Source of the DNA: Serripes groenlandicus
Taxonomy: Eukaryota > Mollusca > Bivalvia > Cardiida > Cardiidae
DNA length: 64,000 bases
Assembly: GCA_031761405.1 (NCBI GenBank)
Contig: JASEVX010000007.1
Coordinates: 61,267,062-61,331,061 of the forward strand
Reading direction: 5' to 3'
Positions within the stretch are counted from its first letter, which is position 1. Every line of letters begins with the position of its first letter. The notes beneath the pieces are model-generated. The model saw nothing but the letters and a program-made list of their open reading frames with translations, had not been told where the DNA came from and searched no databases. This document shows positions 4,156 through 39,643 of this stretch, piece after piece. The position numbers were made by a program, and so were the translations under genes.

Positions 4156-4157
4156 GT

Positions 4158-7015: not shown

Positions 7016-7073
7016 CAACAGTGTAGAAACTTTTCCCCACACTGTTCTCGAACACGTTTAGCTGCAAACATCC

Positions 7074-13230: not shown

Positions 13231-13231
13231 G

Positions 13232-13273
<42 letters not shown>

Positions 13274-13525: not shown

Positions 13526-13552
13526 CCCGCCGTGATATAACAGTCTCGTAAG

Positions 13553-13727: not shown

Positions 13728-13741
13728 TTTTTAAAAAGTGT

Positions 13742-13905
13742 TTGTTTAATGTGTTTTACGTCGCGTACAACATTGCGTAAGTTACATCACGGTGTTTCCT
13801 GGGTTTCAGTAGTACTGGTCCATTTATCCTGGCACCTGCGAATCCGTCATAATGCTAACCCCCAATCCCTGAGCGCCCGTGATGAAAAGCAATCACTGGT
13901 GACAT
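13742..13905 (-). mobile_element. SINE-1 copy, 5'-truncated and diverged, reverse
   Basis: Third consecutive reverse copy: 'gtgttttacgtcgcgtacaa', 'tacatcacggtgtttcctgg', 'tccatttatcctggcacctg'. It has no tail and is the most diverged of the three, hence probably the oldest. Confidence 0.75.
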
Positions 13906-13974
13906 ACACAGGAAAAACAGTTATATAACTGTATACTTGTATACCTTTCATTTAAAGAGATTTTTCATTTGTTT

Positions 13975-14035
13975 TTACCCAGATGCTTTCAAAGACGTCT
14001 GCTGGTGATTTGTCGTATGTAGGAAAAGAGTTAAG
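13975..14035 (+). mobile_element. MITE-B right-end fragment
   Basis: 'tcaaagacgtctgctggtga' and 'gtatgtaggaaaagagttaa' match the MITE-B right terminus only. Confidence 0.45.
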
Positions 14036-14147
14036 ACGTATATGTCCCACGCAACTAAAAGTGACTAATCGTTCTCGTAATGTTTTGTAAATGAAAAATA
14101 AATGTTATAAATAAAAGTGCGAATTGTCATTTTCAGCACATTCCAAG

Positions 14148-14270
14148 CGGATTTGTCAGTCTCTAAATGGACCAAAAGTACTGGTAACGCACCCAGGAAA
14201 CGCCATGATATAGCTGAACAATTGTTGAGAGTGGCGTAAATAACCACATAAACAATCGACCATCTCTTAA
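14148..14270 (+). mobile_element. SINE-1 3' fragment
   Basis: 'aaatggaccaaaagtactgg', 'caggaaacgccatgatatag' and 'gagagtggcgtaaataacca' identify the 3' half, with a decayed tail. Confidence 0.75.
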
Positions 14271-14276
14271 CCCTTT

Positions 14277-14498
14277 CCCTCATACGACAATTCTGCAGCA
14301 GACGACTTTGAACATATTTTGTCAAAAAATAGAAAAATCTCTATAATTAAATAGATAACCTATGACTAAAAGAGGAAAACATTGTGGAAAAAGGGAGAAA
14401 TTGCTCGTTTTGAGCAATTTCTTCTTTTGTCACTATGTTTTCAAAAAGCCGTCTGCTGCAGAGGCGTCAGAAAGCGTCTGTATGAGGGAAAGGGTTAA
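14277..14498 (-). mobile_element. MITE-A copy, reverse
   Basis: Intact TTAA at 14,277-14,280 and 14,495-14,498 and near-consensus ends. GCTC/GAGC hairpin. One of the best-preserved copies. Confidence 0.9.
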
Positions 14499-16860: not shown

Positions 16861-17067
16861 CTGTCTGCCACAGGCACTATTGAGGTTTTTGCAAACAATG
16901 CTGATTTCAGGTGAGTCAGCTCCTAACGAGCTGTCTCACCTGAAATCAGCATTGTTTGCCTTTTAGTTACCAAAATAGTCCAAAACTTTCATAAATTGAA
17001 GAATGGACACACCCGATTTTGAACATGGAAGAGTCTACTTTAAACAATTCGGCGCTGAAAGAGTTAA
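16861..17067. mobile_element. MITE-E copy with intact long stem
   Basis: A near-perfect hairpin occupies 16,891-16,959: GCAAACAATGCTGATTTCAG and its reverse complement CTGAAATCAGCATTGTTTGC flank a GAGTCAGCTCctaacGAGCTG centre. The right part ('cccgattttgaacatggaag') ends 'ggcgctgaaagagttaa', mirroring the left terminus. Best copy of the family in the window. Confidence 0.75.
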
Positions 17068-18368: not shown

Positions 18369-18377
18369 CCCATTCAT
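18369..18377. repeat. Left 9-bp target-site duplication (CCCATTCAT)
   Basis: Identical to 39,635-39,643, immediately outside the opposite terminus. The duplication cannot be extended in either direction, so it fixes both ends of the 21-kb element. Confidence 0.9.
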
Positions 18378-18435
18378 AGGTGTGTGAAGTTAGCGCGTAG
18401 ATCGTAGATCGTAGCTCAACCAAAAATGTAATTGG
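18378..18435 (+). repeat. Left terminal inverted repeat
   Basis: Unique 20-bp tip (AGGTGTGTGAAGTTAGCGCG), then three TAGATCG/ATCGTAG-type heptamers, then GCTCAACC and an A5 run leading to TGTAATTGG. It merges into the 53-bp array. The non-repetitive tip is the most likely recognition site for a trans-acting transposase. Confidence 0.88.
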
Positions 18436-21400
18436 TTGTGCTGGGTCGTAGATCGTAGCTCAACCACTTAAAAACATTCAGAATTGGTTGTGCTGGGTCG
18501 TAGATCGTAGCTCAACCATTTTAAAAAGATTGCGAATTGGTTGTGCTGGGTCGTAGATCGTAGCTCAACCATTTTAAAAACATTGCGAATTGGTTGTGCT
18601 GGGTCGTAGATCGTAGCTCAACCATTTTAAAAAGATTGCGAATTGGTTGTGCTGGGTCGTAGATCGTAGCTCAACCATTTTAAAAACATTGCAAATTGGT
18701 TGTGCTGGGTCGTAGATCGTAGCTCAACCACTTAAAAACATTCAGAATTGGTTGTGCTGGGTCGTAGATCGTAGCTCAACCATTTTAAAAAGATTGCGAA
18801 TTGGTTGTGCTGGGTCGTAGATCGTAGCTCAACCATTTTAAAAACATTGCGAATTGGTTGTGCTGGGTCGTAGATCGTAGCTCAACCATTTTAAAAAGAT
18901 TGCGAATTGGTTGTGCTGGGTCGTAGATCGTAGCTCAACCATTTTAAAAACATTGCAAATTGGTTGTGCTGGGTCGTAGATCGTAGCTCAACCACTTAAA
19001 AACATTCAGAATTGGTTGTGCTGGGTCGTAGATCGTAGCTCAACCATTTTAAAAAGATTGCGAATTGGTTGTGCTGGGTCGTAGATCGTAGCTCAACCAT
19101 TTTAAAAACATTGCGAATTGGTTGTGCTGGGTCGTAGATCGTAGCTCAACCACTACAAAAACATTGAGAATTGGTTGTGCTGGGTCGTAGATCGTAGCTC
19201 AACCATTTTAAAAACATTGCGAATTGGTTGTGCTGGGTCGTAGATCGTAGCTCAACCACTTAAAAACATTCAGAATTGGTTGTGCTGGGTCGTAGATCGT
19301 AGCTCAACCATTTTAAAAAGATTGCGAATTGGTTGTGCTGGGTCGTAGATCGTAGCTCAACCACTACAAAAACATTCAGAATTGGTTGAGCTGGGTCGTA
19401 GATCGTAGCTCAACCATTTTAAAAACATTGCAAATTGGTTGTGCTGGGTCGTAGATCGTAGCTCAACCACTTAAAAACATTCAGAATTGGTTGTGCTGGG
19501 TCGTAGATCGTAGCTCAACCATTTTAAAAAGATTGCGAATTGGTTGTGCTGGGTCGTAGATCGTAGCTCAACCACTACAAAAGCATTCAGAATTGGTTGA
19601 GCTGGGTCGTAGATCGTAGCTCAACCATTTTAAAAACAGTGCGAATTGGTTGTGCTGGGTCGTAGATCGTAGCTCAACCACTTAAAAACATTCAGAATTG
19701 GTTGTGCTGGGTCGTAGATCGTAGCTCAACCATTTTAAAAAGATTGCGAATTGGTTGTGCTGGATCGTAGATCGTAGCTCAACCATTTTAAAAACATTGC
19801 GAATTGGTTGTGCTGGGTCGTAGATCGTAGCTCAACCATTTTAAAAAGATTGCGAATTGGTTGTGCTGGGTCGTAGATCGTAGCTCAACCATTTTAAAAA
19901 CATTGCAAATTGGTTGTGCTGGGTCGTAGATCGTAGCTCAACCATTTTAAAAACATTGCGAATTGGTTGTGCTGGGTCGTAGATCGTAGCTCAACCATTT
20001 TAAAAACATTGCAAATTGGTTGTGCTGGGTCGTAGATCGTAGCTCAACCACTTAAAAACATTCAGAATTGGTTGTGCTGGGTCGTAGATCGTAGCTCAAC
20101 CATTTTAAAAAGATTGCGAATTGGTTGTGCTGGGTCGTAGATCGTAGCTCAACCACTACAAAAGCATTCAGAATTGGTTGAGCTGGGTCGTAGATCGTAG
20201 CTCAACCATTTTAAAAACAGTGCGAATTGGTTGTGCTGGGTCGTAGATCGTAGCTCAACCACTTAAAAACATTCAGAATTGGTTGTGCTGGGTCGTAGAT
20301 CGTAGCTCAACCATTTTAAAAAGATTGCGAATTGGTTGTGCTGGATCGTAGATCGTAGCTCAACCATTTTAAAAACATTGCGAATTGGTTGTGCTGGGTC
20401 GTAGATCGTAGCTCAACCATTTTAAAAAGATTGCGAATTGGTTGTGCTGGGTCGTAGATCGTAGCTCAACCATTTTAAAAACATTGCAAATTGGTTGTGC
20501 TGGGTCGTAGATCGTAGCTCAACCATTTTAAAAACATTGCGAATTGGTTGTGCTGGGTCGTAGATCGTAGCTCAACCACTTAAAAACATTCAGAATTGGT
20601 TGTGCTGGGTCGTAGATCGTAGCTCAACCATTTTAAAAACATTGCGAATTGGTTGTGCTGGGTCGTAGATCGTAGCTCAACCACTTAAAAACATTCAGAA
20701 TTGGTTGTGCTGGGTCGTAGATCGTAGCTCAACCATTTTAAAAAGATTGCGAATTGGTTGTGCTGGGTCGTAGATCGTAGCTCAACCACTACAAAAACAT
20801 TCAGAATTGGTTGAGCTGGGTCGTAGATCGTAGCTCAACCATTTTAAAAACATTGCAAATTGGTTGTGCTGGGTCGTAGATCGTAGCTCAACCACTTAAA
20901 AACATTCAGAATTGGTTGTGCTGGGTCGTAGATCGTAGCTCAACCATTTTAAAAACATTGCGAATTGGTTGTGCTGGGTCGTAGATCGTAGCTCAACCAC
21001 TACAAAAACATTCAGAATTGGTTGTGCTGGGTCGTAGATCGTAGCTCAACCATTTTAAAAACATTGCAAATTGGTTGTGCTGGGTCGTAGATCGTAGCTC
21101 AACCATTTTAAAAACATTGCGAATTGGTTGTGCTGGGTCGTAGATCGTAGCTCAACCACTTTAAAAACATTGCGAATTGGTTGTGCTGGGTCGTAGATCG
21201 TAGCTCAACCACTACAAAAACATTCAGAATTGGTTGAGCTGGGTCGTAGATCGTAGCTCAACCATTTTAAAAACATTGCGAATTGGTTGTGCTGGGTCGT
21301 AGATCGTAGCTCAACCACTACAAAAACATTCAGAATTGGTTGTGCTGGGTCGTAGATCGTAGCTCAACCACTTAAAAACATTGCGAATTGGTTGTGCTGG

Positions 21401-23376
21401 GTCGTAGATCGTAGCTCAACCATTTTAAAAACATTGCGAATTGGTTGTGCTGGGTCGTAGATCGTAGCTCAACCACTTAAAAACATTGCGAATTGGTTGT
21501 GCTGGGTCGTAGATCGTAGCTCAACCACTTAAAAACATTGCGAATTGGTTGTGCTGGGTCGTAGATCGTAGCTCAACCACTACAAAAACATTCAGAATTG
21601 GTTGTGCTGGGTCGTAGATCGTAGCTCAACCACTTAAAAACATTGCGAATTGGTTGTGCTGGGTCGTAGATCGTAGCTCAACCATTTTAAAAACATTGCG
21701 AATTGGTTGTGCTGGGTCGTAGATCGTAGCTCAACCACTTAAAAACATTGCGAATTGGTTGTGCTGGGTCGTAGATCGTAGCTCAACCACTTTAAAAACA
21801 TTGCGAATTGGTTGTGCTGGGTCGTAGATCGTAGCTCAACCACTACAAAAACATTCAGAATTGGTTGAGCTGGGTCGTAGATCGTAGCTCAACCATTTTA
21901 AAAACATTGCGAATTGGTTGTGCTGGGTCGTAGATCGTAGCTCAACCACTTAAAAACATTCAGAATTGGTTGTGCTGGGTCGTAGATCGTAGCTCAACCA
22001 TTTTAAAAAGATTGCGAATTGGTTGTGCTGGGTCGTAGATCGTAGCTCAACCACTACAAAAACATTCAGAATTGGTTGAGCTGGGTCGTAGATCGTAGCT
22101 CAACCATTTTAAAAACAGTGCGAATTGGTTGTGCTGGGTCGTAGATCGTAGCTCAACCACTTAAAAACATTCAGAATTGGTTGTGCTGGGTCGTAGATCG
22201 TAGCTCAACCATTTTAAAAAGATTGCGAATTGGTTGTTCTGGATCGTAGATCGTAGCTCAACCATTTTAAAAACATTGCGAATTGGTTGTGCTGGGTCGT
22301 AGATCGTAGCTCAACCATTTTAAAAAGATTGCGAATTGGTTGTGCTGGGTCGTAGATCGTAGCTCAACCATTTTAAAAACATTGCAAATTGGTTGTGCTG
22401 GGTCGTAGATCGTAGCTCAACCATTTTAAAAACATTGCGAATTGGTTGTGCTGGGTCGTAGATCGTAGCTCAACCACTTAAAAACATTCAGAATTGGTTG
22501 TGCTGGGTCGTAGATCGTAGCTCAACCATTTTAAAAACATTGCGAATTGGTTGTGCTGGGTCGTAGATCGTAGCTCAACCACTTAAAAACATTCAGAATT
22601 GGTTGTGCTGGGTCGTAGATCGTAGCTCAACCATTTTAAAAAGATTGCGAATTGGTTGTGCTGGGTCGTAGATCGTAGCTCAACCACTACAAAAACATTC
22701 AGAATTGGTTGAGCTGGGTCGTAGATCGTAGCTCAACCATTTTAAAAACATTGCAAATTGGTTGTGCTGGGTCGTAGATCGTAGCTCAACCACTTAAAAA
22801 CATTCAGAATTGGTTGTGCTGGGTCGTAGATCGTAGCTCAACCATTTTAAAAACATTGCGAATTGGTTGTGCTGGGTCGTAGATCGTAGCTCAACCACTA
22901 CAAAAACATTCAGAATTGGTTGTGCTGGGTCGTAGATCGTAGCTCAACCATTTTAAAAACATTGCAAATTGGTTGTGCTGGGTCGTAGATCGTAGCTCAA
23001 CCATTTTAAAAACATTGCGAATTGGTTGTGCTGGGTCGTAGATCGTAGCTCAACCACTACAAAAACATTGAGAATTGGCTGACCTGGGTCATAGATCGTA
23101 GCTCAACCACTTTAAAAACATTTTGAATTGGCTGACCTGGGTCGTAGATCGTAGCTCAACCACTTTAAAAACATTGCGAATTGGTTGTGCTGTGTCGTAG
23201 ATCGTAGCTCAACCACTTTAACAACATTGCGAATTCGTTGTGCTGGGTCGTAGATCGTAGCTCAACCACTAGAAAAAAACATTCTGAATTGGCTGACCTG
23301 GGTCATAGATCGTAGCTCAACCACTTTAAAAACATTCTGAATTGGCTGACCTGGGTCGTAGATCGTAGATCGTAGA
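18421..23376 (+). repeat. Left arm: ~53-bp tandem array (about 93 copies)
   Basis: The monomer has a nearly invariant 35-bp part (ATTGGTTGTGCTGGGTCGTA followed by GATCGTAGCTCAACC) and a 17-18-bp part that alternates among a few types (cattttaaaaagattgcga, cattttaaaaacattgcga, cacttaaaaacattcaga, cactacaaaaacattcaga). A blocked pattern is visible: a GGATCG variant marks repeats 581 bp apart (19,762 and 20,343), and the stretch from 20,343 to about 21,148 recurs 1,898 bp later at 22,241-23,046. The inner end (from about 23,068) holds diverged units with GGCTGACCTGGG. Confidence 0.93.
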
Positions 23377-23543
23377 TTCCCACTGACACGTAATGCAGAG
23401 TATACGCATGCATATAAAACATATATACATTACATACACACGCAAACACAGAACAAAACATGTCAGTAAGGATGTCCTTCGTAGTTCCCACTGACATGTA
23501 ATGCAGAGTATACTCATGCATATAAAACATGTATTGTTCTGTG
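23377..23543 (+). repeat. ~110-bp repeat, left copies (1.5 units)
   Basis: Two units start TTCCCACTGACACGTAATGC (23,377) and TTCCCACTGACATGTAATGC (23,485). The same unit recurs in direct, not inverted, orientation at 28,555. It separates the left arm from the central satellite. Confidence 0.8.
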
Positions 23544-26500
23544 TCCCGTGAAAAAAAAAAAGAAAAAGTGTTCCACTCCATTGTGAAATGTTCGTGCTTC
23601 GACTGCCTTGACTAAGGCCTCTATGACGAAGTGCTCCCTTTAAATTACGCGGTAAACTCGGGTAGAAATTCGACTTACGGCCCTGGTAGCTGTCCCGTGA
23701 AAAAAAAATAAAAAGTGTTCCACTCCATTGTGAAATGTTCGGGCTTCCTCTGCCTTGACTCCCTTTAAATTACGCGGTAAATTCAGGTAGAAATTCGACT
23801 TACGGCCCTGGTAGCTGTCACATGAAAAAAAGAGAAAAAAGTTTTCCACTCCATTGTGAAATGTTCGGGCTTCGACTGACTTGACTAAGGCCTATAGGAC
23901 GGAGTGCTCCCTATAAATTACGCGGTAAACTCGGGTAGAAATTCGACTTACGGGCCCTGGTAGCTGTCTCGTGAAAAAAAGAAAAAAAGTGTTCCACTCC
24001 ATTGTGAAATGTTCGGGCTTCGACTGCCTTGACTAAGGCCTATAGGACGGAGTGCTCCCTATAAATTACGCGGGTAGAAATTCCACTTACGGCCCTGGTA
24101 GCTGTCCCGTGAAAAAAAAAAGTGTTCCACTCCATTGTGAAATGATCAGTCTTCGACTGCCTTGACTAAGGCCTCTATGACGGAGTGCTCCCTTTAAATT
24201 ACGCGGTAAACTCGGGTACGGCCCTGGTAGCTGTCCCGTGAAAAAATAAAATGTGTTCCACTCCATTGTGAAATGTTCGGTCTTCGACTGCCTTGACTAA
24301 GGCCTCTATGACGGAGTGCTCCCTTTAAATTACGCGGTAAACTTGGGTAGAAATTCCACTTACGGCCCTGGTAGCTGTCTCGTGAAAAAAGGAAAAAAAG
24401 TGTTCCACTCCATTGTGAAATGTTCGGTCTTCGACTGCCTTGACTAAGGCCTCTAGTACCGAGTGCTCCTTTAAATTATGCGGTAAATTCTGGTAGAAAT
24501 TCGACTTACGGCCCTGGTAGCTGTCCCGTGAAAAAAAAATAAAAGTGTTCCACTCCATTGTGAAATGTTCGTGCTTCGACTGCCTTGACTAAGGCCTCTA
24601 TGACGGAGTGCTCCCTTTAAATTACGCGGTAAACTCGGGTAGAAATTCGACTTACGACCCTGATAGCTGTCCCGTGAAAAAAAAATAAAAAAGTGTTCCA
24701 CTCCATTGTTAAATGTTCGTGCTTCGACTGCCTTGACTAAGGCCTCTATGACGGAGTGCTCCCTTTAAATTACGCGGGTAGAAATTCCACTTACGGCCCT
24801 GGTAGCTGTCCCGTGAAAAAAACCCAAAAAAAGTGTTCCACTCCATTGTGAAACGTTCCGGCTTCGACTGCCTTGATTAAGGCCTCTAGGACGAAGTGCT
24901 CCCTTTAAATTACACGGTAAACTCGGGTACGGCCCTGGTAGCTGTCCCGTGAAAAAATAAAAATGTGTTCCACTCCATTGTGAAATGTTCGGTCTTCGAC
25001 TGCCTTGACTAAGGCCTCTATGACGGAGTGCTCCCTTTAAATTACGCGGTAAACTCGGGTAGAAATTCGACTTACGGCCCTGGTAGCTGTCCCGTGAAAA
25101 AATAAATAAAAAGTGTTCCACTCCATTGTGAAATGTTCGGGCTTCCTCTGCCTTGACTCCCTTTAAATTACGCGGTAAATTCAGGTAGAAATTCGACTTA
25201 CGGCCCTGGTAGCTGTCACGTGAAAAAAAGAACAAAAAGTGTTCCACTCCATTGTGAAATGTTCGGGCTTCGACTGCCTTGACTAAGGCCTATAGGACGG
25301 AGTGCTCCCTATAAATTACGCGGTAAACTCGGGTAGAAATTCGACTTACGGGCCCTGGTAGCTGTCTCGTGAAAAAAAGAAAAAAAAGTGTTCCACTCCA
25401 TTGTGAAATGTTCGGGCTTCGACTGCCTTGACTAAGGCCTCTATGACGGAGTGCTCCCTTTAAATTACGCGGGTAGAAATTCCACTTACGGCCCTGGTAG
25501 CTGTCCCGTGAAAAAAAACCAAAAAAAGTGTTCCACTCCGTTGTGAAACGTTCCGGCTTCGACTGCCTTGATTAAGGCCTCTAGGACGAAGTGCTCCCTT
25601 TAAATTACACGGTAAACTCGGGTACGGCCCTGGTAGCTGTCCCGTGAAAAAATAAAAATGTGTTCCACTCCATTGTGAAATGTTCGGTCTTCGACTGCCT
25701 TGACTAAGGCCTCTATGACGGAGTGCTCCCTTTAAATTACGCGGTAAATTCAGGTAGAAATTCGACTTACGGCCCTGGTAGCTGTCACGTGAAAAAAAGG
25801 AAAAAAAGTGTTCCACTCCATTGTGAAATGTTCGGGCTTCGACTGCCTTGACTAAGGCCTATAGGACGGAGTGCTCCCTATAAATTACGCGGTAAACTCG
25901 GGTAGAAATTCGACTTACGGGCCCTGGTAGCTGTCTCGTGAAAAAAAGAAAAAAAAGTGTTCCACTCCATTGTGAAATGTTCGGGCTTCGACTGCCTTGA
26001 CTAAGGCCTATAGGACGGAGTGCTCCCTATAAATTACGCGGGTAGAAATTCCACTTACGGCCCTGGTAGCTGTCCCGTGAAAAAAAAAAAGTGTTCCACT
26101 CCATTGTGAAATGATCAGTCTTCGACTGCCTTGACTAAGGCCTCTATGACGGAGTGCTCCCTTTAAATTACGCGGTAAACTCGGGTACGGCCCTGGTAGC
26201 TGTCCCGTGAAAAAATAAAATGTGTTCCACTCCATTGTGAAATGTTCGGTCTTCGACTGCCTTGACTAAGGCCTCTATGACGGAGTGCTCCCTTTAAATT
26301 ACGCGGTAAACTTGGGTAGAAATTCCACTTACGGCCCTGGTAGCTGTCTCGTGAAAAAAGGAAAAAAAGTGTTCCACTCCATTGTGAAATGTTCGGTCTT
26401 CGACTGCCTTGACTAAGGCCTCTAGTACCGAGTGCTCCTTTAAATTATGCGGTAAATTCTGGTAGAAATTCGACTTACGGCCCTGGTAGCTGTCCCGTGA

Positions 26501-27860
26501 AAAAAAATAAAAGTGTTCCACTCCATTGTGAAATGTTCGTGCTTCGACTGCCTTGACTAAGGCCTCTATGACGGAGTGCTCCCTTTAAATTACGCGGTAA
26601 ACTCGGGTAGAAATTTGACTTACGGCCCTGATAGCTGTCCCGTGAAAAATAAATAAAAAAGTGTTCCACTCCATTGTTAAATGTTCGTGCTTCGACTGCC
26701 TTGACTAAGGCCTCTATGACGGAGTGCTCCCTTTAAATTACGCGGGTAGAAATTCCACTTACGGCCCTGGTAGCTGTCCCGTGAAAAAAAAACAAAAAAA
26801 GTGTTCCACTCCATTGTGAAACGTTCCGGCTTCGACTGCCTTGAGTAAGGCCTCTAGGACGAAGTGCTCCCTTTAAATTACACGGTAAACTCGGGTACGG
26901 CCCTGGTAGCTGTCCCGTGAAAAAATAAAAATGTGTTCCACTCCATTGTGAAATGTTCGGTCTTCGACTGCCTTGACTAAGGCCTCTATGACGGAGTGCT
27001 CCCTTTAAATTACGCGGTAAATTCAGGTAGAAATTCGACTTACGGCCCTGGTAGCTGTCACGTGAAAAAAAGGAAAAAAAGTGTTCCACTCCATTGTGAA
27101 ATGTTCGGTCTTCGACTGCCTTGACTAAGGCCTCTAGTACCGAGTGCTCCTTTAAATTATGTGGTAAATTCGGGTAGAAATTCGACTTACGGCCCTGGTA
27201 GCTGTCCCGTGAAAAAATAAAAAAAAGTGTTCCACTCCATTGTGAAATGTTCGTGCTTCGACTGCCTTGACTAAGGCCTCTATGACGGAGTGCTCCCTTT
27301 AAATTACGCGGTAAACTCGGGTAGAAATTCGACTTACGGCCCTGATAGCTGACCCGTGAAAAAAAAAATAAAAAAGTGTTCCACTCCATTGTGAAATGTT
27401 CGGTCTTCGACTGCCTTGACTAAGGCCTCTATGACGGAGTGCTCCCTTTAAATTACGCGGTAAATTCAGGTAGAAATTCGACTTACGGCCCTGGTAGCTG
27501 TCACGTGAAAAAAAGGAAAAAAAGTGTTCCACTCCATTGTGAAATGTTCGGGCTTCGACTGCCTTGACTAAGGCCTCTAGTACCGAGTGCTCCTTTAAAT
27601 TATGCGGTAAATTCGGGTAGAAATTCGACTTACGGCCCTGGTAGCTGTCCCGTGAAAAAAAAAAAAAGTGTTCCACTCCATTGTGAAATGTTCGTGCTTC
27701 GACTGCCTTGACTAAGGCCTCTATGACGGAGTGCTCCCTTTAAATTACGCGGTAAACTCGGGTAGAAATTCGACTTACGGCCCTGATAGCTGTCCCGTGA
27801 AAAATAAATAAAAAGTGTTCCACTCCATTGTGAAATGTTCGTGCTTCGACTGCCTTGACT
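23543..27860. repeat. Central ~145-bp satellite array (about 30 copies)
   Basis: Units run TGTTCCACTCCATTGTGAAA, 'ttcgactgccttgactaagg', 'ggagtgctccctttaaatta', 'cgcggtaaactcgggtagaa', 'gccctggtagctgtcccgtg', then a variable A-rich linker of 10-20 bp. Unit length varies from about 95 to 148 bp because internal blocks are lost. A higher-order period of about 1,969 bp is visible: the variant AATGATCAGT occurs at 24,141 and 26,110, and AAACGTTCCG at 24,851 and 26,819. Minus-strand frames of up to 218 codons pass through several units (SRDSYQGRKSNFY-like peptides), but the A-tract length changes reset the frame, so I do not call a protein. Confidence 0.92.
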
Positions 27861-28041
27861 ATTGCAAGCGCGCACATGATGCAGATCGGTGATTGCTGAT
27901 TCTTCGCTGGATCTCCGCTGCGCTTCTATATTACCGTTGCGAGCCGGGTCAAAGTAAGCAATATGATTGAAAACGAAAGTAAAAAGATGAGCCAATCAGA
28001 TTCGGGGTCACCGATCTGCATCATGTGCGCGCTTGCAATAG
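27859..28041. repeat. 183-bp inverted-repeat segment with perfect 34-bp arms
   Basis: The arms start CTATTGCAAGCGCGCACATG (27,859-27,892) and end in its complement (28,008-28,041); all 34 positions pair. The 115-bp interior includes GAGCCAATCAG, a CCAAT-box-like motif, near 27,990-28,000. It interrupts the last satellite unit, but the unit does not resume on the right, so no target-site duplication can be shown. It could be a MITE, or an inverted duplication of promoter DNA. Confidence 0.7.
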
Positions 28042-28554
28042 TAAATGGCCGTAGCGAGAAATTTTCAATCGGTGGCGATGTAAATCGACGGATTGTGCAT
28101 GGTAAACACTAAAAAGGTAAGCTATGACAGCCGAATTTGTTAAATAGTGAAGGTATTGATCTATTCAGACCGTTAACTGGCTGCTGATTGTAGTTTAAGC
28201 GTGATTTCCCTTCTTAACGACATTGTTGTAGAGCCGTTGTAGGTGTCCCACTACTTTTCCGACTAAGCAATATCACCCAGATTTGGTTAATAAATGGCTC
28301 AATTACTCGTTGGTTTGCTTAACAAGGGTAAAGTGTTATATACCGTTGGATAGGTTAGGGATTCAGCTAAATAGATATGTACAGCATGTTAAGATATCTT
28401 GAACATTGTTAGAGAAATCGACGGTAACAGTAGGCTTAGCCGGTTTTCGGAGAGTTCGGAGTTGTAGTCCTTTTCTTTATATATAGTATTGGTGGAATTT
28501 TTTTTTTCGGATTTTTTTTTTCATGAGTCAAGCTCCTGTGAGTTGACCCGGACA
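28042..28554 (+). other. Non-repetitive core; possible captured promoter and first exon
   Basis: This is the only stretch of the 21-kb element without tandem structure. About 60-100 bp after the CCAAT-like motif, ATG at 28,099 opens a six-codon reading (M-V-N-T-K-K) that runs directly into AAG|GTAAGC, a good match to a splice donor (boundary 28,116/28,117). No matching downstream exon is visible, since satellite DNA follows. If real, it is an orphan 5' gene fragment like those carried by Pack-MULEs; the short length means chance is a serious alternative. T-rich tracts follow at about 28,498-28,521. Confidence 0.3.
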
Positions 28555-28790
28555 TTCCCACTGACACGTAATGCAGAGTATACGCATGTATATAAAACAT
28601 ATATACATACCATACACACGCAAACACAGAACAAAACATGTCAGTAAGGATGTCCTTCGTAGTTGACCTGGACATCCCCACTGACACGTAATGCAGAGCA
28701 AACACAGAACAAAACATGTCAGTGAGGATGTCCTTAGTAGTTAACACGGACATGCAATGCAAAGCATACGTCTGCATATGGACACATATA
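28555..28790 (+). repeat. ~110-bp repeat, right copies
   Basis: The first unit (28,555-28,674) is almost identical to 23,377-23,484 over about 105 bp. A second unit (28,675 on) has an internal deletion of about 40 bp joining 'atgcagag' to 'caaacacagaac'. A third is only a decayed start ('acatgcaatgcaaagcatac'). With the left copies, it brackets the central satellite in direct orientation. Confidence 0.8.
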
Positions 28791-28984
28791 CATGTATATA
28801 TAAAAAGTTGTATACCCATATAAGTGATGTGATATCCATGAAAACAATCTGGGAACAGTAAGAGTCACTCTTGGGGAGAGAAAATATCCTTTTCTCAAAG
28901 TGTTATCAAGATATATTAAAATATGTCACATGCTCATTTACCAGGGACGGATCAAATATAGTATATGCATGACTAAATGGTGTT
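28791..28984. other. Short unique spacer before the right arm
   Basis: No repeat or gene recognised. Confidence 0.5.
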
Positions 28985-31900
28985 CTAGTGGTTGAGCTAC
29001 GATCTACGACCCAGCTCAACCAATTTGCAATGTTTTCTAGTGGTTGAGCTACGATCTACGACCTAGGTCAGCCAATTCAGAATGTTTTTTCCATTGGTTG
29101 AGCTACGATCTACGACCCAGTTCAGCCAATTCAGAATGTTTTTCCATTGGTTGAGCTACGATCTACGACCCAGGTCAGCCAATTCAGAATGTTTTTCCAT
29201 TGTTGAGCTACGATCTACGAGTCAATTATGAATGTTTTTCAAGTGGTTGAGCTACGATCTACGACCCATGTCAGCCAATTCAGAATGTTTTACCATTGGT
29301 TGAGCTATGATCTACGACCCAGGTCAGCCAATTCGCAATGTTTGTCTAGTGGTTGAGCTACGATCTACGACCCAGCTCAACCAATTTGCAATGTTTTTCC
29401 TAGTGGTTGAGCTACGATCTACGACCCAGGTCAGCCAATTATGAATGTTTTTCAAGTGGTTGAGTTACGATCTACGACTCAGGTCAGCCAATTATGAATG
29501 TTTTTCTATTGGTTGTGCTACGATCTACGACCCAGAACAACCAATTCGCAATGTTTTTAAAGTGGTTAAGCTACGATCTATGACCCAGGTCAGCCAATTC
29601 AGAATGTCTTTCTAGTGGTTGAGCTACGATCTACGACCCAGGTCAGCCAATTCAGAATGTTTTTCTAGTGGTTGAGCTACGATCTACGACCCAGCACAAC
29701 CAATTCGCAATGTTTTTAAAATGGTTGAGCTACGATCTACGACCCAGCTCAACCAATTCTGAATGTTTTTGTAGTGGTTGAGCTACGATCTACGACCCAG
29801 CACAACCAATTCACAATGTTTTTAAAGTGGTTGAGCTACGATCTACGACCCAGCACAACCAATTCGCAATGTTTTTAAGTGGTTGAGCTACGATCTACGA
29901 CACAGCTCAACCAATTCTGAATGTTTTTGTAGTGGTTGAGCTACGATCTACGACCCAGCACAACCAATTCGCAATGTTTTTAAAGTGGTTGAGCTACGAT
30001 CTACGACCCAGCACAACCAATTCGCAATGTTTTTAAATGGTTGAGCTACGATCTACGACCCAGCACAACCAATTCGCAATGTTTTTAAAATGGTTGAGCT
30101 ACGATCTACGACCCAGCACAACCAATTCGCAATGTTTTTAAGTGGTTGAGCTACGATCTACGACCCAGCACAACCAATTCTGAATGTTTTTGTAGTGGTT
30201 GAGCTACGATCTACGACCCAGCACAACCAATTCGCAATGTTTTTAAAATGGTTGAGCTACGATCTACGACCAGGCTCAACCAATTCTGAATGTTTTTGTA
30301 GTGGTTGAGCTACGATCTACGACCCAGCACAACCAATTCGCAATGTTTTTAAAATGGTTGAGCTACGATCTACGACCCAGCTCAACCAATTCTGAATGTT
30401 TTTGTAGTGGTTGAGCTACGATCTACGACCCAACACAACCAATTCGCAATGTTTTTAAAGTGGTTGAGCTACGATCTACCACCCAGCACAACCAATTCGC
30501 AATGTTTGTAAGTGGTTGAGCTACGATCTACGACCCAGCACAACCAATTTGCAATGTTTTTAAAATGGTTGAGCTACGATCTACGACCCAGCACAACCAA
30601 TTCTGAATGTTTTTGTAGTGGTTGAGCTACGATCTACGACCCAGCACAACCAATTCGCAATGTTTTTAAGTGGTTGAGCTACGATCTACGACCCAGCTCA
30701 ACCAATTCTCAATGTTTTTGTAGTGGTTGAGCTACGATCTACGACCCAGCACAACCAATTCACAATGTTTTTAAAGTGGTTGAGCTACGATCTACGACCC
30801 AGCACAACCAATTCGCAATGTTTTTAAGTGGTTGAGCTACGATCTACGACCCAGCACAACCAATTCTGAATGTTTTTGTAGTGGTTGAGCTACGATCTAC
30901 GACCCAGCACAACCAATTCGCAATGTTTTTAAAATGGTTGAGCTACGATCTACGACCCAGCTCAACCAATTCTGAATGTTTTTGTAGTGGTTGAGCTACG
31001 ATCTACGACCCAGCACAACCAATTCGCAATGTTTTTAAAGTGGTTGAGCTACGATCTACGACCCAGCACAACCAATTCGCAATGTTTTTAAAATGGTTGA
31101 GCTACGATCTACGACCCAGCACAACCAATTCGCAATGTTTTTAAAATGGTTGAGCTACGATCTACGACCCAGCACAACCAATTCTGAATGTTTTTGTAGT
31201 GGTTGAGCTACGATCTACGACCCAGCACAACCAATTCGCAATGTTTTTAAAATGGTTGAGCTACGATCTACGACCCAGCTCAACCAATTCTGAATGTTTT
31301 TGTAGTGGTTGAGCTACGATCTACGACCCAGCACAACCAATTCGCAATGTTTTTAAGTGGTTGAGCTACGATCTACGACCCAGCACAACCAATTCTGAAT
31401 GTTTTTGTAGTGGTTGAGCTACGATCTACGACCCAGCACAACCAATTCGCAATGTTTTTAAAATGGTTGAGCTACGATCTACGACCCAGCTCAACCAATT
31501 CTGAATGTTTTTGTAGTGGTTGAGCTACGATCTACGACCCAGCACAACCAATTCGCAATGTTTTTAAAATGGTTGAGCTACGATCTACGACCCAGCTCAA
31601 CCAATTCTGAATGTTTTTGTAGTGGTTGAGCTACGATCTACGACCCAACACAACCAATTCGCAATGTTTTTAAAGTGGTTGAGCTACGATCTACCACCCA
31701 GCACAACCAATTCGCAATGTTTGTAAGTGGTTGAGCTACGATCTACGACCCAGCACAACCAATTTGCAATGTTTTTAAAATGGTTGAGCTACGATCTACG
31801 ACCCAGCACAACCAATTCTGAATGTTTTTGTAGTGGTTGAGCTACGATCTACGACCCAGCACAACCAATTCGCAATGTTTTTAAGTGGTTGAGCTACGAT

Positions 31901-34900
31901 CTACGACCCAGCTCAACCAATTCTCAATGTTTTTGTAGTGGTTGAGCTACGATCTACGACCCAGCACAACCAATTCACAATGTTTTTAAAGTGGTTGAGC
32001 TACGATCTACGACCCAGCACAACCAATTCGCAATGTTTTTAAGTGGTTGAGCTACGATCTACGACCCAGCACAACCAATTCTGAATGTTTTTGTAGTGGT
32101 TGAGCTACGATCTACGACCCAGCACAACCAATTCGCAATGTTTTTAAAATGGTTGAGCTACGATCTACGACCCAGCTCAACCAATTCTGAATGTTTTTGT
32201 AGTGGTTGAGCTACGATCTACGACCCAGCACAACCAATTCGCAATGTTTTTAAAGTGGTTGAGCTACGATCTACGACCCAGCACAACCAATTCGCAATGT
32301 TTTTAAAATGGTTGAGCTACGATCTACGACCCAGCACAACCAATTCGCAATGTTTTTAAAATGGTTGAGCTACGATCTACGACCCAGCACAACCAATTCT
32401 GAATGTTTTTGTAGTGGTTGAGCTACGATCTACGACCCAGCACAACCAATTCGCAATGTTTTTAAAATGGTTGAGCTACGATCTACGACCCAGCTCAACC
32501 AATTCTGAATGTTTTTGTAGTGGTTGAGCTACGATCTACGACCCAGCACAACCAATTCGCAATGTTTTTAAAGTGGTTGAGCTACGATCTACGACCCAGC
32601 ACAACCAATTCGCAATGTTTTTAAATGGTTGAGCTACGATCTACGACCCAGCACAACCAATTCGCAATGTTTTTAAAATGGTTGAGCTACGATCTACGAC
32701 CCAGCACAACCAATTCGCAATGTTTTTAAGTGGTTGAGCTACGATCTACGACCCAGCACAACCAATTCTGAATGTTTTTGTAGTGGTTGAGCTACGATCT
32801 ACGACCCAGCACAACCAATTCGCAATGTTTTTAAAATGGTTGAGCTACGATCTACGACCCAGCTCAACCAATTCTGAATGTTTTTGTAGTGGTTGAGCTA
32901 CGATCTACGACCCAGCACAACCAATTCACAATGTTTTTAAAATGGTTGAGCTACGATCTACGACCCAGCTCAACCAATTCTGAATGTTTTTGTAGTGGTT
33001 GAGCTACGATCTACGACCCAACACAACCAATTCGCAATGTTTTTAAAGTGGTTGAGCTACGATCTACCACCCAGCACAACCAATTCGCAATGTTTGTAAG
33101 TGGTTGAGCTACGATCTACGACCCAGCACAACCAATTTGCAATGTTTTTAAAATGGTTGAGCTACGATCTACGACCCAGCACAACCAATTCTGAATGTTT
33201 TTGTAGTGGTTGAGCTACGATCTACGACCCAGCACAACCAATTCGCAATGTTTTTAAGTGGTTGAGCTACGATCTACGACCCAGCTCAACCAATTCTCAA
33301 TGTTTTTGTAGTGGTTGAGCTACGATCTACGACCCAGCACAACCAATTCACAATGTTTTTAAAGTGGTTGAGCTACGATCTACGACCCAGCACAACCAAT
33401 TCGCAATGTTTTTAAGTGGTTGAGCTACGATCTACGACCCAGCACAACCAATTCTGAATGTTTTTGTAGTGGTTGAGCTACGATCTACGACCCAGCACAA
33501 CCAATTCGCAATGTTTTTAAAATGGTTGAGCTACGATCTACGACCCAGCTCAACCAATTCTGAATGTTTTTGTAGTGGTTGAGCTACGATCTACGACCCA
33601 GCACAACCAATTCGCAATGTTTTTAAAGTGGTTGAGCTACGATCTACGACCCAGCACAACCAATTCGCAATGTTTTTAAAATGGTTGAGCTACGATCTAC
33701 GACCCAGCACAACCAATTCGCAATGTTTTTAAAATGGTTGAGCTACGATCTACGACCCAGCACAACCAATTCTGAATGTTTTTGTAGTGGTTGAGCTACG
33801 ATCTACGACCCAGCACAACCAATTCGCAATGTTTTTAAAATGGTTGAGCTACGATCTACGACCCAGCTCAACCAATTCTGAATGTTTTTGTAGTGGTTGA
33901 GCTACGATCTACGACCCAGCACAACCAATTCGCAATGTTTTTAAAGTGGTTGAGCTACGATCTACGACCCAGCACAACCAATTCGCAATGTTTTTAAGTG
34001 GTTGAGCTACGATCTACGACCCAGCACAACCAATTCGCAATGTTTTTAAAACGGTTGAGCTACGATCTACGACCCAGCACAACCAATTCGCAATGTTTTT
34101 AAGTGGTTGAGCTACGATCTACGACCCAGCACAACCAATTCTGAATGTTTTTGTAGTGGTTGAGCTACGATCTACGACCCAGCACAACCAATTCGCAATG
34201 TTTTTAAAATGGTTGAGCTACGATCTACGACCCAGCTCAACCAATTCTGAATGTTTTTGTAGTGGTTGAGCTACGATCTACGACCCAGCACAACCAATTC
34301 GCAATGTTTTTAAAATGGTTGAGCTACGATCTACGACCCAGCTCAACCAATTCTGAATGTTTTTGTAGTGGTTGAGCTACGATCTACGACCCAACACAAC
34401 CAATTCGCAATGTTTTTAAAGTGGTTGAGCTACGATCTACCACCCAGCACAACCAATTCGCAATGTTTGTAAGTGGTTGAGCTACGATCTACGACCCAGC
34501 ACAACCAATTTGCAATGTTTTTAAAATGGTTGAGCTACGATCTACGACCCAGCACAACCAATTCTGAATGTTTTTGTAGTGGTTGAGCTACGATCTACGA
34601 CCCAGCACAACCAATTCGCAATGTTTTTAAGTGGTTGAGCTACGATCTACGACCCAGCTCAACCAATTCTCAATGTTTTTGTAGTGGTTGAGCTACGATC
34701 TACGACCCAGCACAACCAATTCACAATGTTTTTAAAGTGGTTGAGCTACGATCTACGACCCAGCACAACCAATTCTCAATGTTTTTAAGTGGTTGAGCTA
34801 CGATCTACGACCCAGCACAACCAATTCTGAATGTTTTTGTAGTGGTTGAGCTACGATCTACGACCCAGCACAACCAATTCGCAATGTTTTTAAAATGGTT

Positions 34901-37900
34901 GAGCTACGATCTACGACCCAGCTCAACCAATTCTGAATGTTTTTGTAGTGGTTGAGCTACGATCTACGACCCAGCACAACCAATTCGCAATGTTTTTAAA
35001 GTGGTTGAGCTACGATCTACGACCCAGCACAACCAATTCGCAATGTTTTTAAAATGGTTGAGCTACGATCTACGACCCAGCACAACCAATTCGCAATGTT
35101 TTTAAAATGGTTGAGCTACGATCTACGACCCAGCACAACCAATTCTGAATGTTTTTGTAGTGGTTGAGCTACGATCTACGACCCAGCACAACCAATTCGC
35201 AATGTTTTTAAAATGGTTGAGCTACGATCTACGACCCAGCTCAACCAATTCTGAATGTTTTTGTAGTGGTTGAGCTACGATCTACGACCCAGCACAACCA
35301 ATTCGCAATGTTTTTAAAGTGGTTGAGCTACGATCTACGACCCAGCACAACCAATTCGCAATGTTTTTAAATGGTTGAGCTACGATCTACGACCCAGCAC
35401 AACCAATTCGCAATGTTTTTAAAATGGTTGAGCTACGATCTACGACCCAGCACAACCAATTCGCAATGTTTTTAAGTGGTTGAGCTACGATCTACGACCC
35501 AGCACAACCAATTCTGAATGTTTTTGTAGTGGTTGAGCTACGATCTACGACCCAGCACAACCAATTCGCAATGTTTTTAAAATGGTTGAGCTACGATCTA
35601 CGACCCAGCTCAACCAATTCTGAATGTTTTTGTAGTGGTTGAGCTACGATCTACGACCCAGCACAACCAATTCGCAATGTTTTTAAAATGGTTGAGCTAC
35701 GATCTACGACCCAGCTCAACCAATTCTGAATGTTTTTGTAGTGGTTGAGCTACGATCTACGACCCAACACAACCAATTCGCAATGTTTTTAAAGTGGTTG
35801 AGCTACGATCTACCACCCAGCACAACCAATTCGCAATGTTTGTAAGTGGTTGAGCTACGATCTACGACCCAGCACAACCAATTTGCAATGTTTTTAAAAT
35901 GGTTGAGCTACGATCTACGACCCAGCACAACCAATTCTGAATGTTTTTGTAGTGGTTGAGCTACGATCTACGACCCAGCACAACCAATTCGCAATGTTTT
36001 TAAGTGGTTGAGCTACGATCTACGACCCAGCTCAACCAATTCTCAATGTTTTTGTAGTGGTTGAGCTACGATCTACGACCCAGCACAACCAATTCACAAT
36101 GTTTTTAAAGTGGTTGAGCTACGATCTACGACCCAGCACAACCAATTCGCAATGTTTTTAAGTGGTTGAGCTACGATCTACGACCCAGCACAACCAATTC
36201 TGAATGTTTTTGTAGTGGTTGAGCTACGATCTACGACCCAGCACAACCAATTCGCAATGTTTTTAAAATGGTTGAGCTACGATCTACGACCCAGCTCAAC
36301 CAATTCTGAATGTTTTTGTAGTGGTTGAGCTACGATCTACGACCCAGCACAACCAATTCGCAATGTTTTTAAAGTGGTTGAGCTACGATCTACGACCCAG
36401 CACAACCAATTCGCAATGTTTTTAAAATGGTTGAGCTACGATCTACGACCCAGCACAACCAATTCGCAATGTTTTTAAAATGGTTGAGCTACGATCTACG
36501 ACCCAGCACAACCAATTCTGAATGTTTTTGTAGTGGTTGAGCTACGATCTACGACCCAGCACAACCAATTCGCAATGTTTTTAAAATGGTTGAGCTACGA
36601 TCTACGACCCAGCTCAACCAATTCTGAATGTTTTTGTAGTGGTTGAGCTACGATCTACGACCCAGCACAACCAATTCGCAATGTTTTTAAAGTGGTTGAG
36701 CTACGATCTACGACCCAGCACAACCAATTCGCAATGTTTTTAAGTGGTTGAGCTACGATCTACGACCCAGCACAACCAATTCGCAATGTTTTTAAAATGG
36801 TTGAGCTACGATCTACGACCCAGCACAACCAATTCGCAATGTTTTTAAGTGGTTGAGCTACGATCTACGACCCAGCACAACCAATTCTGAATGTTTTTGT
36901 AGTGGTTGAGCTACGATCTACGACCCAGCACAACCAATTCGCAATGTTTTTAAAATGGTTGAGCTACGATCTACGACCCAGCTCAACCAATTCTGAATGT
37001 TTTTGTAGTGGTTGAGCTACGATCTACGACCCAGCACAACCAATTCGCAATGTTTTTAAAATGGTTGAGCTACGATCTACGACCCAGCTCAACCAATTCT
37101 GAATGTTTTTGTAGTGGTTGAGCTACGATCTACGACCCAACACAACCAATTCGCAATGTTTTTAAGTGGTTGAGCTACGATCTACGACCCAGCTCAACCA
37201 ATTCTCAATGTTTTTGTAGTGGTTGAGCTACGATCTACGACCCAGCACAACCAATTCACAATGTTTTTAAAGTGGTTGAGCTACGATCTACGACCCAGCA
37301 CAACCAATTCGCAATGTTTTTAAGTGGTTGAGCTACGATCTACGACCCAGCACAACCAATTCTGAATGTTTTTGTAGTGGTTGAGCTACGATCTACGACC
37401 CAGCACAACCAATTCGCAATGTTTTTAAAATGGTTGAGCTACGATCTACGACCCAGCTCAACCAATTCTGAATGTTTTTGTAGTGGTTGAGCTACGATCT
37501 ACGACCCAGCACAACCAATTCGCAATGTTTTTAAAGTGGTTGAGCTACGATCTACGACCCAGCACAACCAATTCGCAATGTTTTTAAAATGGTTGAGCTA
37601 CGATCTACGACCCAGCACAACCAATTCGCAATGTTTTTAAAATGGTTGAGCTACGATCTACGACCCAGCTCAACCAATTCTGAATGTTTTTGTAGTGGTT
37701 GAGCTACGATCTACGACCCAGCACAACCAATTCGCAATGTTTTTAAAATGGTTGAGCTACGATCTACGACCCAGCTCAACCAATTCTGAATGTTTTTGTA
37801 GTGGTTGAGCTACGATCTACGACCCAGCACAACCAATTCGCAATGTTTTTAAAGTGGTTGAGCTACGATCTACGACCCAGCACAACCAATTCGCAATGTT

Positions 37901-39583
37901 TTTAAGTGGTTGAGCTACGATCTACGACCCAGCACAACCAATTCGCAATGTTTTTAAAATGGTTGAGCTACGATCTACGACCCAGCACAACCAATTCGCA
38001 ATGTTTTTAAGTGGTTGAGCTACGATCTACGACCCAGCACAACCAATTCTGAATGTTTTTGTAGTGGTTGAGCTACGATCTACGACCCAGCACAACCAAT
38101 TCGCAATGTTTTTAAGTGGTTGAGCTACGATCTACGACCCAGCACAACCAATTCGCAATGTTTTTAAGTGGTTGAGCTACGATCTACGACCCAGCACAAC
38201 CAATTCGCAATGTTTTTAAAATGGTTGAGCTACGATCTACGACCCAGCACAACCAATTCGCAATGTTTTTAAGTGGTTGAGCTACGATCTACGACCCAGC
38301 ACAACCAATTCTGAATGTTTTTGTAGTGGTTGAGCTACGATCTACGACCCAGCACAACCAATTCGCAATGTTTTTAAAATGGTTGAGCTACGATCTACGA
38401 CCCAGCTCAACCAATTCTGAATGTTTTTGTAGTGGTTGAGCTACGATCTACGACCCAGCACAACCAATTCGCAATGTTTTTAAAGTGGTTGAGCTACGAT
38501 CTACGACCCAGCACAACCAATTCTCAATGTTTTTAAAATGGTTGAGCTACGATCTACGACCCAGCACAACCAATTTGCAATGTTTTTAAAATGGTTGAGC
38601 TACGATCTACGACCCAGCACAACCAATTCTGAATGTTTTTGTAGTGGTTGAGCTACGATCTACGACCCAGCACAACCAATTCGCAATCTTTTTAAAATGG
38701 TTGAGCTACGATCTACGACCCAGCACAACCAATTCTGAATGTTTTTAAGTGGTTGAGCTACGATCTACGACCCAGCACAACCAATTTGCAATGTTTTTAA
38801 AATGGTTGAGCTACGATCTACGACCCAGCACAACCAATTCGCAATCTTTTTAAAATGGTTGAGCTACGATCTACGACCCAGCACAACCAATTCTGAATGT
38901 TTTTGTAGTGGTTGAGCTACGATCTACGACCCAGCACAACCAATTCGCAATGTTTTTAAAATGGTTGAGCTACGATCTACGACCCAGCTCAACCAATTCT
39001 GAATGTTTTTGTAGTGGTTGAGCTACGATCTACGACCCAGCACAACCAATTCGCAATGTTTTTAAAGTGGTTGAGCTACGATCTACGACCCAGCACAACC
39101 AATTCTCAATGTTTTTAAAATGGTTGAGCTACGATCTACGACCCAGCACAACCAATTTGCAATGTTTTTAAAATGGTTGAGCTACGATCTACGACCCAGC
39201 ACAACCAATTCTGAATGTTTTTGTAGTGGTTGAGCTACGATCTACGACCCAGCACAACCAATTCGCAATCTTTTTAAAATGGTTGAGCTACGATCTACGA
39301 CCCAGCACAACCAATTCTGAATGTTTTTAAGTGGTTGAGCTACGATCTACGACCCAGCACAACCAATTTGCAATGTTTTTAAAATGGTTGAGCTACGATC
39401 TACGACCCAGCACAACCAATTCGCAATCTTTTTAAAATGGTTGAGCTACGATCTACGACCCAGCACAACCAATTCGCAATGTTTTTAAAATGGTTGAGCT
39501 ACGATCTACGACCCAGCACAACCAATTCGCAATGTTTTTAAAGTGGTTGAGCTACGATCTACGACCCAGGTCAGCCAATTACA
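28985..39583 (-). repeat. Right arm: inverted ~53-bp tandem array (about 200 copies)
   Basis: Reverse complement of the left-arm monomer, about twice as long. The inner ~0.7 kb (28,985-29,700) is divergent, with GGTCAGCC variants and a deleted unit near 29,216; the core is homogeneous. A higher-order unit is clear: the marker GACCCAACAC occurs at 30,427, 31,642, 33,015, 34,388, 35,761 and 37,134, i.e. four consecutive spacings of exactly 1,373 bp (about 26 monomers) and one of 1,215 bp (three monomers fewer). The linked marker CTACCACCCA keeps the same spacing and is lost after 35,810. A smaller duplicated block occurs at about 38,500-39,440. Confidence 0.93.
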
Positions 39584-39634
39584 TTTTTTTGGTTGAGCTA
39601 CGATCTACGATCTACGCGCTAACTTCACACACCT
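39575..39634 (-). repeat. Right terminal inverted repeat
   Basis: Reverse complement of the left terminus, with A7 instead of A5. It is preceded by a GACCCAGGTCAGCC-type monomer, the same variant found at the inner ends of both arms. Confidence 0.88.
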
Positions 39635-39643
39635 CCCATTCAT
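39635..39643. repeat. Right 9-bp target-site duplication (CCCATTCAT)
   Basis: Exact match to 18,369-18,377. Unique sequence (gttcaaatgacacg) follows. Confidence 0.9.

Follow-up and report, generated by a model that had tools for sequence, protein, structure and literature searches.

It has long been asked how satellite DNA arrives at new places in a genome and how it then grows, and the question is raised by a stretch of 64,000 nucleotides from the bivalve Serripes groenlandicus (contig JASEVX010000007.1 of assembly GCA_031761405.1; the whole stretch is called the window below). Between positions 18378 and 39634 of the window lies an element of 21,257 bp in which long satellite arrays of opposite orientation are enclosed by inverted termini and a 9-bp direct repeat. 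Was this satellite locus delivered by a transposon, or did a transposon grow into it? The analyses described here lead us to conclude, with a probability of about 0.86, that the element represents a family of giant foldback DNA transposons whose members are non-autonomous and most likely mobilised in trans by the transposase of a Mutator-like element (MULE).

Borders and plan of the element

The window contains two and only two copies of CCCATTCAT, a perfect 9-bp duplication at 18369-18377 and 39635-39643, and AGGTGTGTGAAG, which starts at 18378 on the plus strand and ends at 39634 on the minus strand, lies flush against both copies. The outer 44 bp of the two ends are identical, and, apart from a single 2-bp indel, the match goes on as far as about 58 bp. 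With up to three mismatches the terminal 20-mer occurs at two places only in the window, compared with 0.01 expected from shuffled sequence, and a flush 9-bp match would arise by chance with a probability of about 4e-6 (4 to the power -9). A sequence-only reading of this DNA had claimed inverted termini of about 58 bp lying exactly inside a perfect 9-bp repeat 21 kb apart, and the borders bear this out. Its further claim, that everything in between is tandem repeat in a mirrored plan, holds for the arms, two oppositely oriented arrays of 53-bp repeats (5.0 and 10.6 kb) that account for 74% of the element. It does not hold for the 5.6-kb core (23377-28986), which is unmirrored: most of it is an array of 148-bp repeats in direct orientation, and the rest comprises 108-bp repeats, also direct, a hairpin spanning about 190 bp and non-repeating sequence of several hundred bp; moreover, the arms are unequal (94 versus 201 monomers). 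The features of the element are the following:

18369-18377 (no strand): target-site duplication, left copy CCCATTCAT, exact, two copies only in the window
18378-18435 (+): left terminus, first 44 bp the same as in the right one; contains the 20-mer CGTAGATCGTAGCTCAACCA that opens the arm monomers
18430-23376 (+): left arm, in which the 53-bp array itself covers 18430-23368; about 94 monomers in 20 exact types, with further periods of 211 and 264 bp; the 6 innermost monomers are degenerate
21121-21950 (+): 830-bp inter-arm exchange tract, identical to inverted 37694-38523; right-arm-type monomers within the left arm
23377-23534 (+): 108-bp repeat, about 1.5 copies, recurring in the same direction at 28541-28760
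23544-27861 (+): core array of 148-bp repeats (126- and 420-bp periods too)
27855-28045 (no strand): hairpin (about 190 bp, inverted arms of 38 bp), similar to a miniature inverted-repeat transposable element, just after the 148-bp array; also in copy e32
28046-28540 (no strand): core sequence unrepeated in the element, no protein domain over the curated cut-off
28541-28760 (+): 108-bp repeats, right side
28541-28988 (no strand): core end of 448 bp, shared at 98.9-100% identity by 11 of the 20 further copies with a known interior
28987-39610 (-): right arm, an array of about 201 53-bp monomers that fall into 34 exact types; the 13 innermost monomers are degenerate
30273-37165 (-): recently amplified part of the right arm with a 26-monomer, 1,373-bp higher-order unit; exact self-matches of up to 1,319 bp
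37694-38523 (-): mirror copy of the 830-bp exchange tract
39577-39634 (-): right terminus
39635-39643 (no strand): target-site duplication, right copy CCCATTCAT, exact match to the left copy

The hairpin at 27855-28045 is present in e32 and absent, among the matches listed, from 11 other copies compared. Arm monomers of the GAGCT type contain AGCTCAACCA together with its reverse complement TGGTTGAGCT, so that each could form a small stem-loop.

Copies of the family in the genome

Searches of the animal's own genome covered 1,758,966,737 bases (1.76 Gb) in 1,739 contigs of one assembly. Allowing up to two mismatches, the terminal 20-mer gave 595 forward and 547 reverse matches (1,142 in total), whereas the reversed-pattern control gave 0 and 2. 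One hundred of these places were listed with their positions, all of them on contig C1, and genome-wide figures are therefore extrapolations. When neighbouring inward-facing termini less than 50 kb apart were taken as pairs, the 100 places yielded 32 inward pairs spanning 1,339-26,948 bp (median 12.4 kb; seven are small copies of 1.3-3.9 kb), along with three outward and seven same-strand neighbours. Shuffling the orientations 10,000 times produced 10.6 inward pairs on average and never more than 21. The 9-bp duplication is perfect in 23 of the 32 pairs, has at most one mismatch in 27 and at most two in 28; in a control in which left and right flanks of different pairs were swapped (n=992), 0 combinations had 0 or 1 mismatch and four had up to two. 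Pairs with a perfect duplication range from 2.6 to 26.9 kb. At positions 4, 5 and 6 of the duplication, 21, 21 and 22 of the 24 sites (that of the window among them) carry A or T. The sequence-only reading had proposed a genome search for the terminus, pairing of inverted places within 50 kb and a check for independent 9-bp duplications, and on all three counts the foldback-like transposon that it had recognised is supported.

If the listed places are typical, we estimate several hundred copies in the genome, and extrapolation from the 32 pairs gives a family total of about 4.8-7.4 Mb. Three same-strand termini on C1 (202526665, 202528533 and 202530401) are spaced by exactly 1,868 bp and perhaps belong to a tandem array that includes the terminus. 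Neither the exact terminus nor a 23-mer of the monomer was found in viral contigs (0 matches each); a 17-mer of the terminus matched seven prokaryote contig records, all bacterial by title, which we took as chance.

The interior was read for 20 of the 32 pairs, the other 12 (e10-e21) being known at their ends only. Inverted 53-bp arms are present in all 20, even though the search word excluded the arms, and count from 4 monomers on one side of the copy with the smallest arm up to 214. Sizes were compared for 19 fully read copies plus the window copy (e27, the middle of which lies outside the stretches read, was left out): the arms make up 34-99% of an element, the longest arm measures 11.3 kb and the ratio of longer to shorter arm has a median of 1.8. 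In the comparisons of arm structure and monomer runs, e27 took part with partial arms; those of e32 were partial for arm structure, between-element runs and colinear blocks and complete in the later work on sizes and cores. Long inverted tandem-repeat termini around a middle, the hallmark of the foldback structural class, are thus seen in the window copy and in 20 of 20 pairs, and mobility is evident from separate copies with their own duplications (23 of 32 perfect) and from two paralogous empty sites, treated below.

The 448-bp core end of the window copy recurs at 98.9-100% identity in 11 of the 20 copies; one further copy matches over 343 bp, one over 169 bp and seven have no match at the cut-off. 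Because their core ends are nearly identical, these eleven copies are close relatives that have probably spread recently. More diverged branches are represented by e23, e26, e29 and e31, while e7 and e25 are almost pure hairpins with a middle of less than 50 bp. In the core of e22 (L034) there is a reverse-transcriptase fragment (RVT_1, E 4.4e-7), probably a piece of a nested retroelement.

Empty sites

For 28 other copies and for the window copy, the two flanks were joined and looked up in the stretches that had been read; e3, e4, e7 and e9, which are without a clean duplication, were excluded. Clear paralogous empty sites emerged for two of the 28. The 2.6-kb copy e18 has its counterpart at window positions 16891-16989 (89% over 99 bp) and the 19.0-kb copy e30 in stretch L076 (91% over 177 bp). 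Both insertions lie inside repeats that have an uninterrupted relative, and in both cases the junction is ungapped with a single target copy. The search for empty sites suggested by the sequence-only reading was thus successful for other members of the family and not for the window insertion itself, the joined flanks of which matched only their own two flanks and, on the right, a dispersed repeat (40 of 873 candidates scored). Five further matches were rejected: that of e29 extends barely beyond one side, that of e19 is of low complexity, and those of e8, e26 and e31 are the copies' own stretches.

Probable movement of large units: the sister copy e32

A sister of the window copy, which is on contig C1407, is e32 on contig C1, an element of 26,095 bp with the duplication AGGATACGA. 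The two differ at 2 positions in 1,125 bp of the right-hand core and share exact matches of up to 1,366 bp. Identical runs of monomers reach 25 between the left arms and 22 between the right arms, and the right arms agree over the first 14 monomers from the terminus; outside this pair, none of 840 between-element comparisons gave a run of more than 11 monomers. Colinear blocks of at least five monomers add up to 61 monomers in the left and 52 in the right arm. Shared blocks and core taken together imply, as far as the sequences allow such a reconstruction, that the common ancestor measured at least about 10.6 kb when it jumped. One sister pair therefore suggests that large satellite-laden units can move whole.

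The left arms of the two sisters now differ by 6.3 kb (5.0 kb in the window copy, 11.3 kb in e32). In 12 further pairs, whose core ends differ at one position at most, no more than 11 monomers are shared; array order therefore seems to be lost quickly and the window-e32 pair to have been caught early, a view that assumes descent and draws on a single pair. To the question whether a transposon delivered a satellite locus or grew into one, as the sequence-only reading had put it, the answer would then be both: e32 suggests that a large element moved and that its arrays changed length afterwards.

Sequence sharing and probable exchange between the arms

Within the window copy, positions 21121-21950 and 37694-38523 form an 830-bp block that is identical and mirrored between the arms. 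It holds a run of 15 monomers, whereas the maxima in 500 monomer shuffles and 500 first-order Markov resamples were 6 and 8, respectively. Two of the block's five monomer types are absent from the rest of the left arm, whereas the rest of the right arm has 13 and 19 copies of them; because these types are otherwise confined to the right arm, the exchange likely went from right to left. Monomer strings reveal a related, shorter right-type stretch at the same place in the left arm of e32; an exchange therefore probably predates the split of the two sisters.

The signal extends beyond the window copy. In 21 elements the longest run shared between the two arms of the same element averages 4.81 monomers as opposed to 2.56 in permuted data, and none of 20,000 permutations was as high; when e32 is left out, the means are 4.55 and 2.43, again with no permutation as high. 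The longest within-element runs are those of e24 (16), the window copy and e27 (15 each), e32 (10), e9 and e30 (7 each) and e22 (5).

Transposase and possible mechanism

The duplication of 9 bp falls into the 8-11 bp range of MULEs (PMC6446971), and by this length the superfamily is most likely MULE. The MULE domain PF10551 was searched for in the genome by profile, with 150 of 834 candidates being scored. A family of MULEs with a 510-aa frame came to light in L075 (about 555-3334) and L076 (about 442-3179), 99.2% alike and found with the same score on several contigs. At their ends these elements carry inverted arrays of 32-bp tandem repeats, that is, a transposase-bearing element with a small foldback plan resides in the same genome. 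As a partner for the giant family it was rejected, since neither AGGTGTGTGAAG nor GTAGATCGTAG occurs in the 4-kb stretches read; what it offers is a structural parallel.

The 20-mer that opens the arm monomers is also present about 26 bp inside the terminus. Monomer columns 1-20, which are common with the terminus, are conserved at 0.93-0.99 among the types, compared with 0.74, 0.55 and 0.35 for columns 21, 23 and 24; the anchor for cutting the monomers was placed outside columns 1-20 to avoid circularity. By analogy with Galileo and Tetris, the arms may be regarded as putative iterated transposase-binding sites. The transposase would bind the terminus and probably also the 20-bp motif repeated by the arm monomers, and would cut and paste the entire unit, roughly 2 to 27 kb, leaving the 9-bp duplication. 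Between jumps, unequal exchange or replication slippage may resize the tandem arms much faster than point mutation changes them, while the inverted arms may pair as a foldback and convert each other. Whole-unit transposition, resizing and conversion would together make for a transposon that brings satellite arrays to new sites and keeps reshaping them there. We consider it an even bet that the family is in this sense a self-dispersing and self-homogenising satellite, with ends grown to arrays of up to about 11 kb, units of at least 20 kb that still transpose, arms that copy higher-order blocks between themselves and an array order that turns over faster than single bases change.

Weighing the explanations

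Several observations weigh against the interpretation as a mobile giant foldback family served by a MULE. No transposase was found in the family. Six frames of 27857-28990 in the right-hand core of the window copy (stops as X) and the open reading frames 23329-23769 and 26736-27419 gave Pfam matches below the cut-off only (best E 0.0026 and 0.0038). The 12 PF10551 matches that lie on C1 in the listed range, among the 150 of 834 candidates scored, are all more than 200 kb away from a listed terminus, and the prediction of a MULE or Phantom transposase flanked by the same termini was not confirmed among them. The assignment to MULEs is accordingly based on duplication length. Five of the 32 listed pairs have two or more mismatches in the 9-bp repeat, and some of them may be ends of different elements: e9 has two mismatches, e4 a flush match of 6 bp only (CTCGAG), and e3, e7 and e15 are without a recognisable duplication. 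Under the pair rule 36 of the 100 listed termini stay unpaired, the listed places are on C1 only, so that figures beyond this contig are extrapolations, and no empty copy of the window's own site turned up in this assembly among the 40 of 873 candidates scored. Finally, only a minority of elements contributes to the inter-arm signal, since runs do not exceed three monomers in 14 of the 21.

How far these points matter depends on how the rival explanations fare. It could be that only small foldbacks of 1-4 kb jump and that the large copies grew their arms in place, without any giant unit ever having moved. Small copies do occur (7 of the 32 listed pairs, 1.3-3.9 kb), the right arm contains a 1,373-bp higher-order unit that seems to be of recent date, and arrays evidently change fast, since copies that are 0-1 apart in the 448-bp core end share at most 11 monomers, window and e32 excepted. 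It is this exception, a single pair, that speaks against growth in place: the two copies, on different contigs and with different duplications, share colinear runs in both arms plus the core, in all at least about 10.6 kb, and we regard the explanation as improbable. The likeness of window copy and e32 might, however, stem from ectopic gene conversion between old insertions instead of descent from one transposing copy, and the fact that arms share sequence within elements makes exchange between unlinked elements conceivable. A conversion tract would then need to be very long or repeated, given that the likeness extends over the right end, the core and the two arms in the same order and that no other pair exceeds 11 monomers, and we judge such an origin to be very improbable.

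Long inverted satellite arrays are hard to assemble, and mirrored arms could in principle reflect an assembly artefact or an inversion within an ordinary satellite locus, with the 9-bp repeat due to chance. Such an explanation is scarcely credible in view of perfect duplications in 23 of 32 listed C1 pairs against 0 of 992 swapped combinations, flush termini, paralogous empty sites, the lack of any N in the fetched stretches and arms that are unequal and differ in monomer types; the duplication test on the 32 pairs led us to set aside both assembly inversion and chance repeat. More weight is due to the suggestion that the family is mobile and its transposase not of the MULE type, coming from another superfamily with 9-bp duplications or from a foldback lineage of its own. 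No transposase is linked to the family, and the foldback plan arises in several superfamilies, Galileo being a P-type element (PMC3573991). Nevertheless, 9 bp fits both MULEs in general with their 8-11 bp (PMC6446971) and the Mutator/foldback family Tm1, in which duplications are likewise 9 bp long (PMC3169594), and we therefore consider a non-MULE transposase rather unlikely, and a MULE acting in trans on a non-autonomous giant foldback family the preferred explanation.

Other features of the window

Among the 63 flank open reading frames of at least 75 aa, the 10 that were scanned had no Pfam match over the cut-off (best E 0.0092), and no RNA family reached the Rfam gathering score in the window. 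Two minisatellites of about 1 kb lie outside the element, at 7624-8673 and 43972-45080 (20-bp and 31-bp units). A dispersed repeat around GTCGTCTGCTGCAGA has many copies in the window in both orientations (about 1000-14450, 56111-59240 and 62829-62899); it also adjoins several giant copies, namely in the flanks of e1, e22, e32 and the window copy.

Significance

The family bears on the arrival and growth of satellite DNA in that bounded insertions with their own duplications contain one satellite, kilobases long and in a fixed orientation. It allows sister copies to be compared, array turnover to be set against core substitutions and exchange between inverted arms to be viewed directly. For one fly lineage, satellite repeats have been suggested to originate from foldback elements, which there have terminal repeats of less than 2 kb (PMC4079207). 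According to a review, the efficiency of transposition falls above a cargo of about 6 kb (PMC6431247), whereas perfect duplications here bound copies of 25-27 kb, which touches on the cargo limit of cut-and-paste transposition. If the explanation is true and general, some apparently independent satellite loci would be single transposon insertions, and seeding and growth of a satellite could be dated separately for each site.

Comparison with known systems

FB of Drosophila and TU of sea urchins have the foldback plan; they measure a few kb by the account of the sequence-only reading, and the element described here is larger. Helitrons and Helentrons leave no target-site duplication, and membership in this group was rejected since a duplication is present here. 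A search of the open literature for a giant foldback family in molluscs, covering titles and abstract starts with subscription papers outside its scope, found none, and two stretches of terminus plus monomer, and the reverse complement of one of them, had no match in open paper texts. Of two mollusc papers inspected more closely, one has the word 'foldback' just in a reference, and no occurrence turned up in the other.

Fly and sea-urchin foldbacks are mentioned in the account of Tetris from Drosophila virilis (PMC4079207), which is similar to the family here in its foldback plan, in duplications of 8-10 bp, in its link to satellite DNA and in that no coding copy has been found. Furthermore, the internal tandem repeats of its terminal repeats share a stretch with the outer domain (PMC4079207). 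Compared by description only, Tetris differs in that its terminal repeats do not exceed 1,735 bp and that three structurally complete copies are reported (PMC4079207), as against arms of up to 11.3 kb, 23 copies with perfect duplications among 32 listed pairs and sizes of up to 26.9 kb. Large arrays in Tetris are thought perhaps to disrupt transposition (PMC4079207), whereas here the large copies themselves appear to move. Tm1 of root-knot nematodes has 1-9 units of mostly 14 bp and transposase-encoding copies (PMC3169594), in contrast to up to about 214 units of 53 bp and no such copy found in the present family.

Galileo of Drosophila likewise has long terminal repeats, which vary in length and in some cases contain internal tandem repeats (PMC3573991; PMC3688188), and these tandem repeats hold additional transposase-binding sites (PMC3688188). 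It belongs, however, to the P superfamily, and its terminal repeats reach about 1.26 kb at most (PMC3573991; PMC3688188). Target repeats of Galileo are 7 bp long, as inferred from PMC3573991, and with duplications of 9 bp in the present family the P superfamily was rejected as its home. Rehavkus (9 bp) and Phantom (8-10 bp) are MULEs with similar duplication lengths; Rehavkus is defined by a PHD-finger transposase and a minisatellite before the 3' terminus, and aphid Phantom has a minisatellite after the transposase frame (PMC6446971). Both encode transposase and have the minisatellite on one side (PMC6446971), unlike the two satellite arms seen here. In the oyster, Helitron/Helentron elements also spread satellite arrays through a bivalve genome; their arrays are central and average about six monomers for one satellite (PMC8268682), in contrast to the inverted terminal arrays and 9-bp duplications described here.

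The plan of the element is thus already known from FB, TU and Tetris. What is new is its scale, with arms of several kb in an estimated several hundred copies, and the dynamics of the arms, together with evidence for whole-unit movement in at least one lineage larger than 10 kb and an inter-arm exchange read directly from the order of the monomers.

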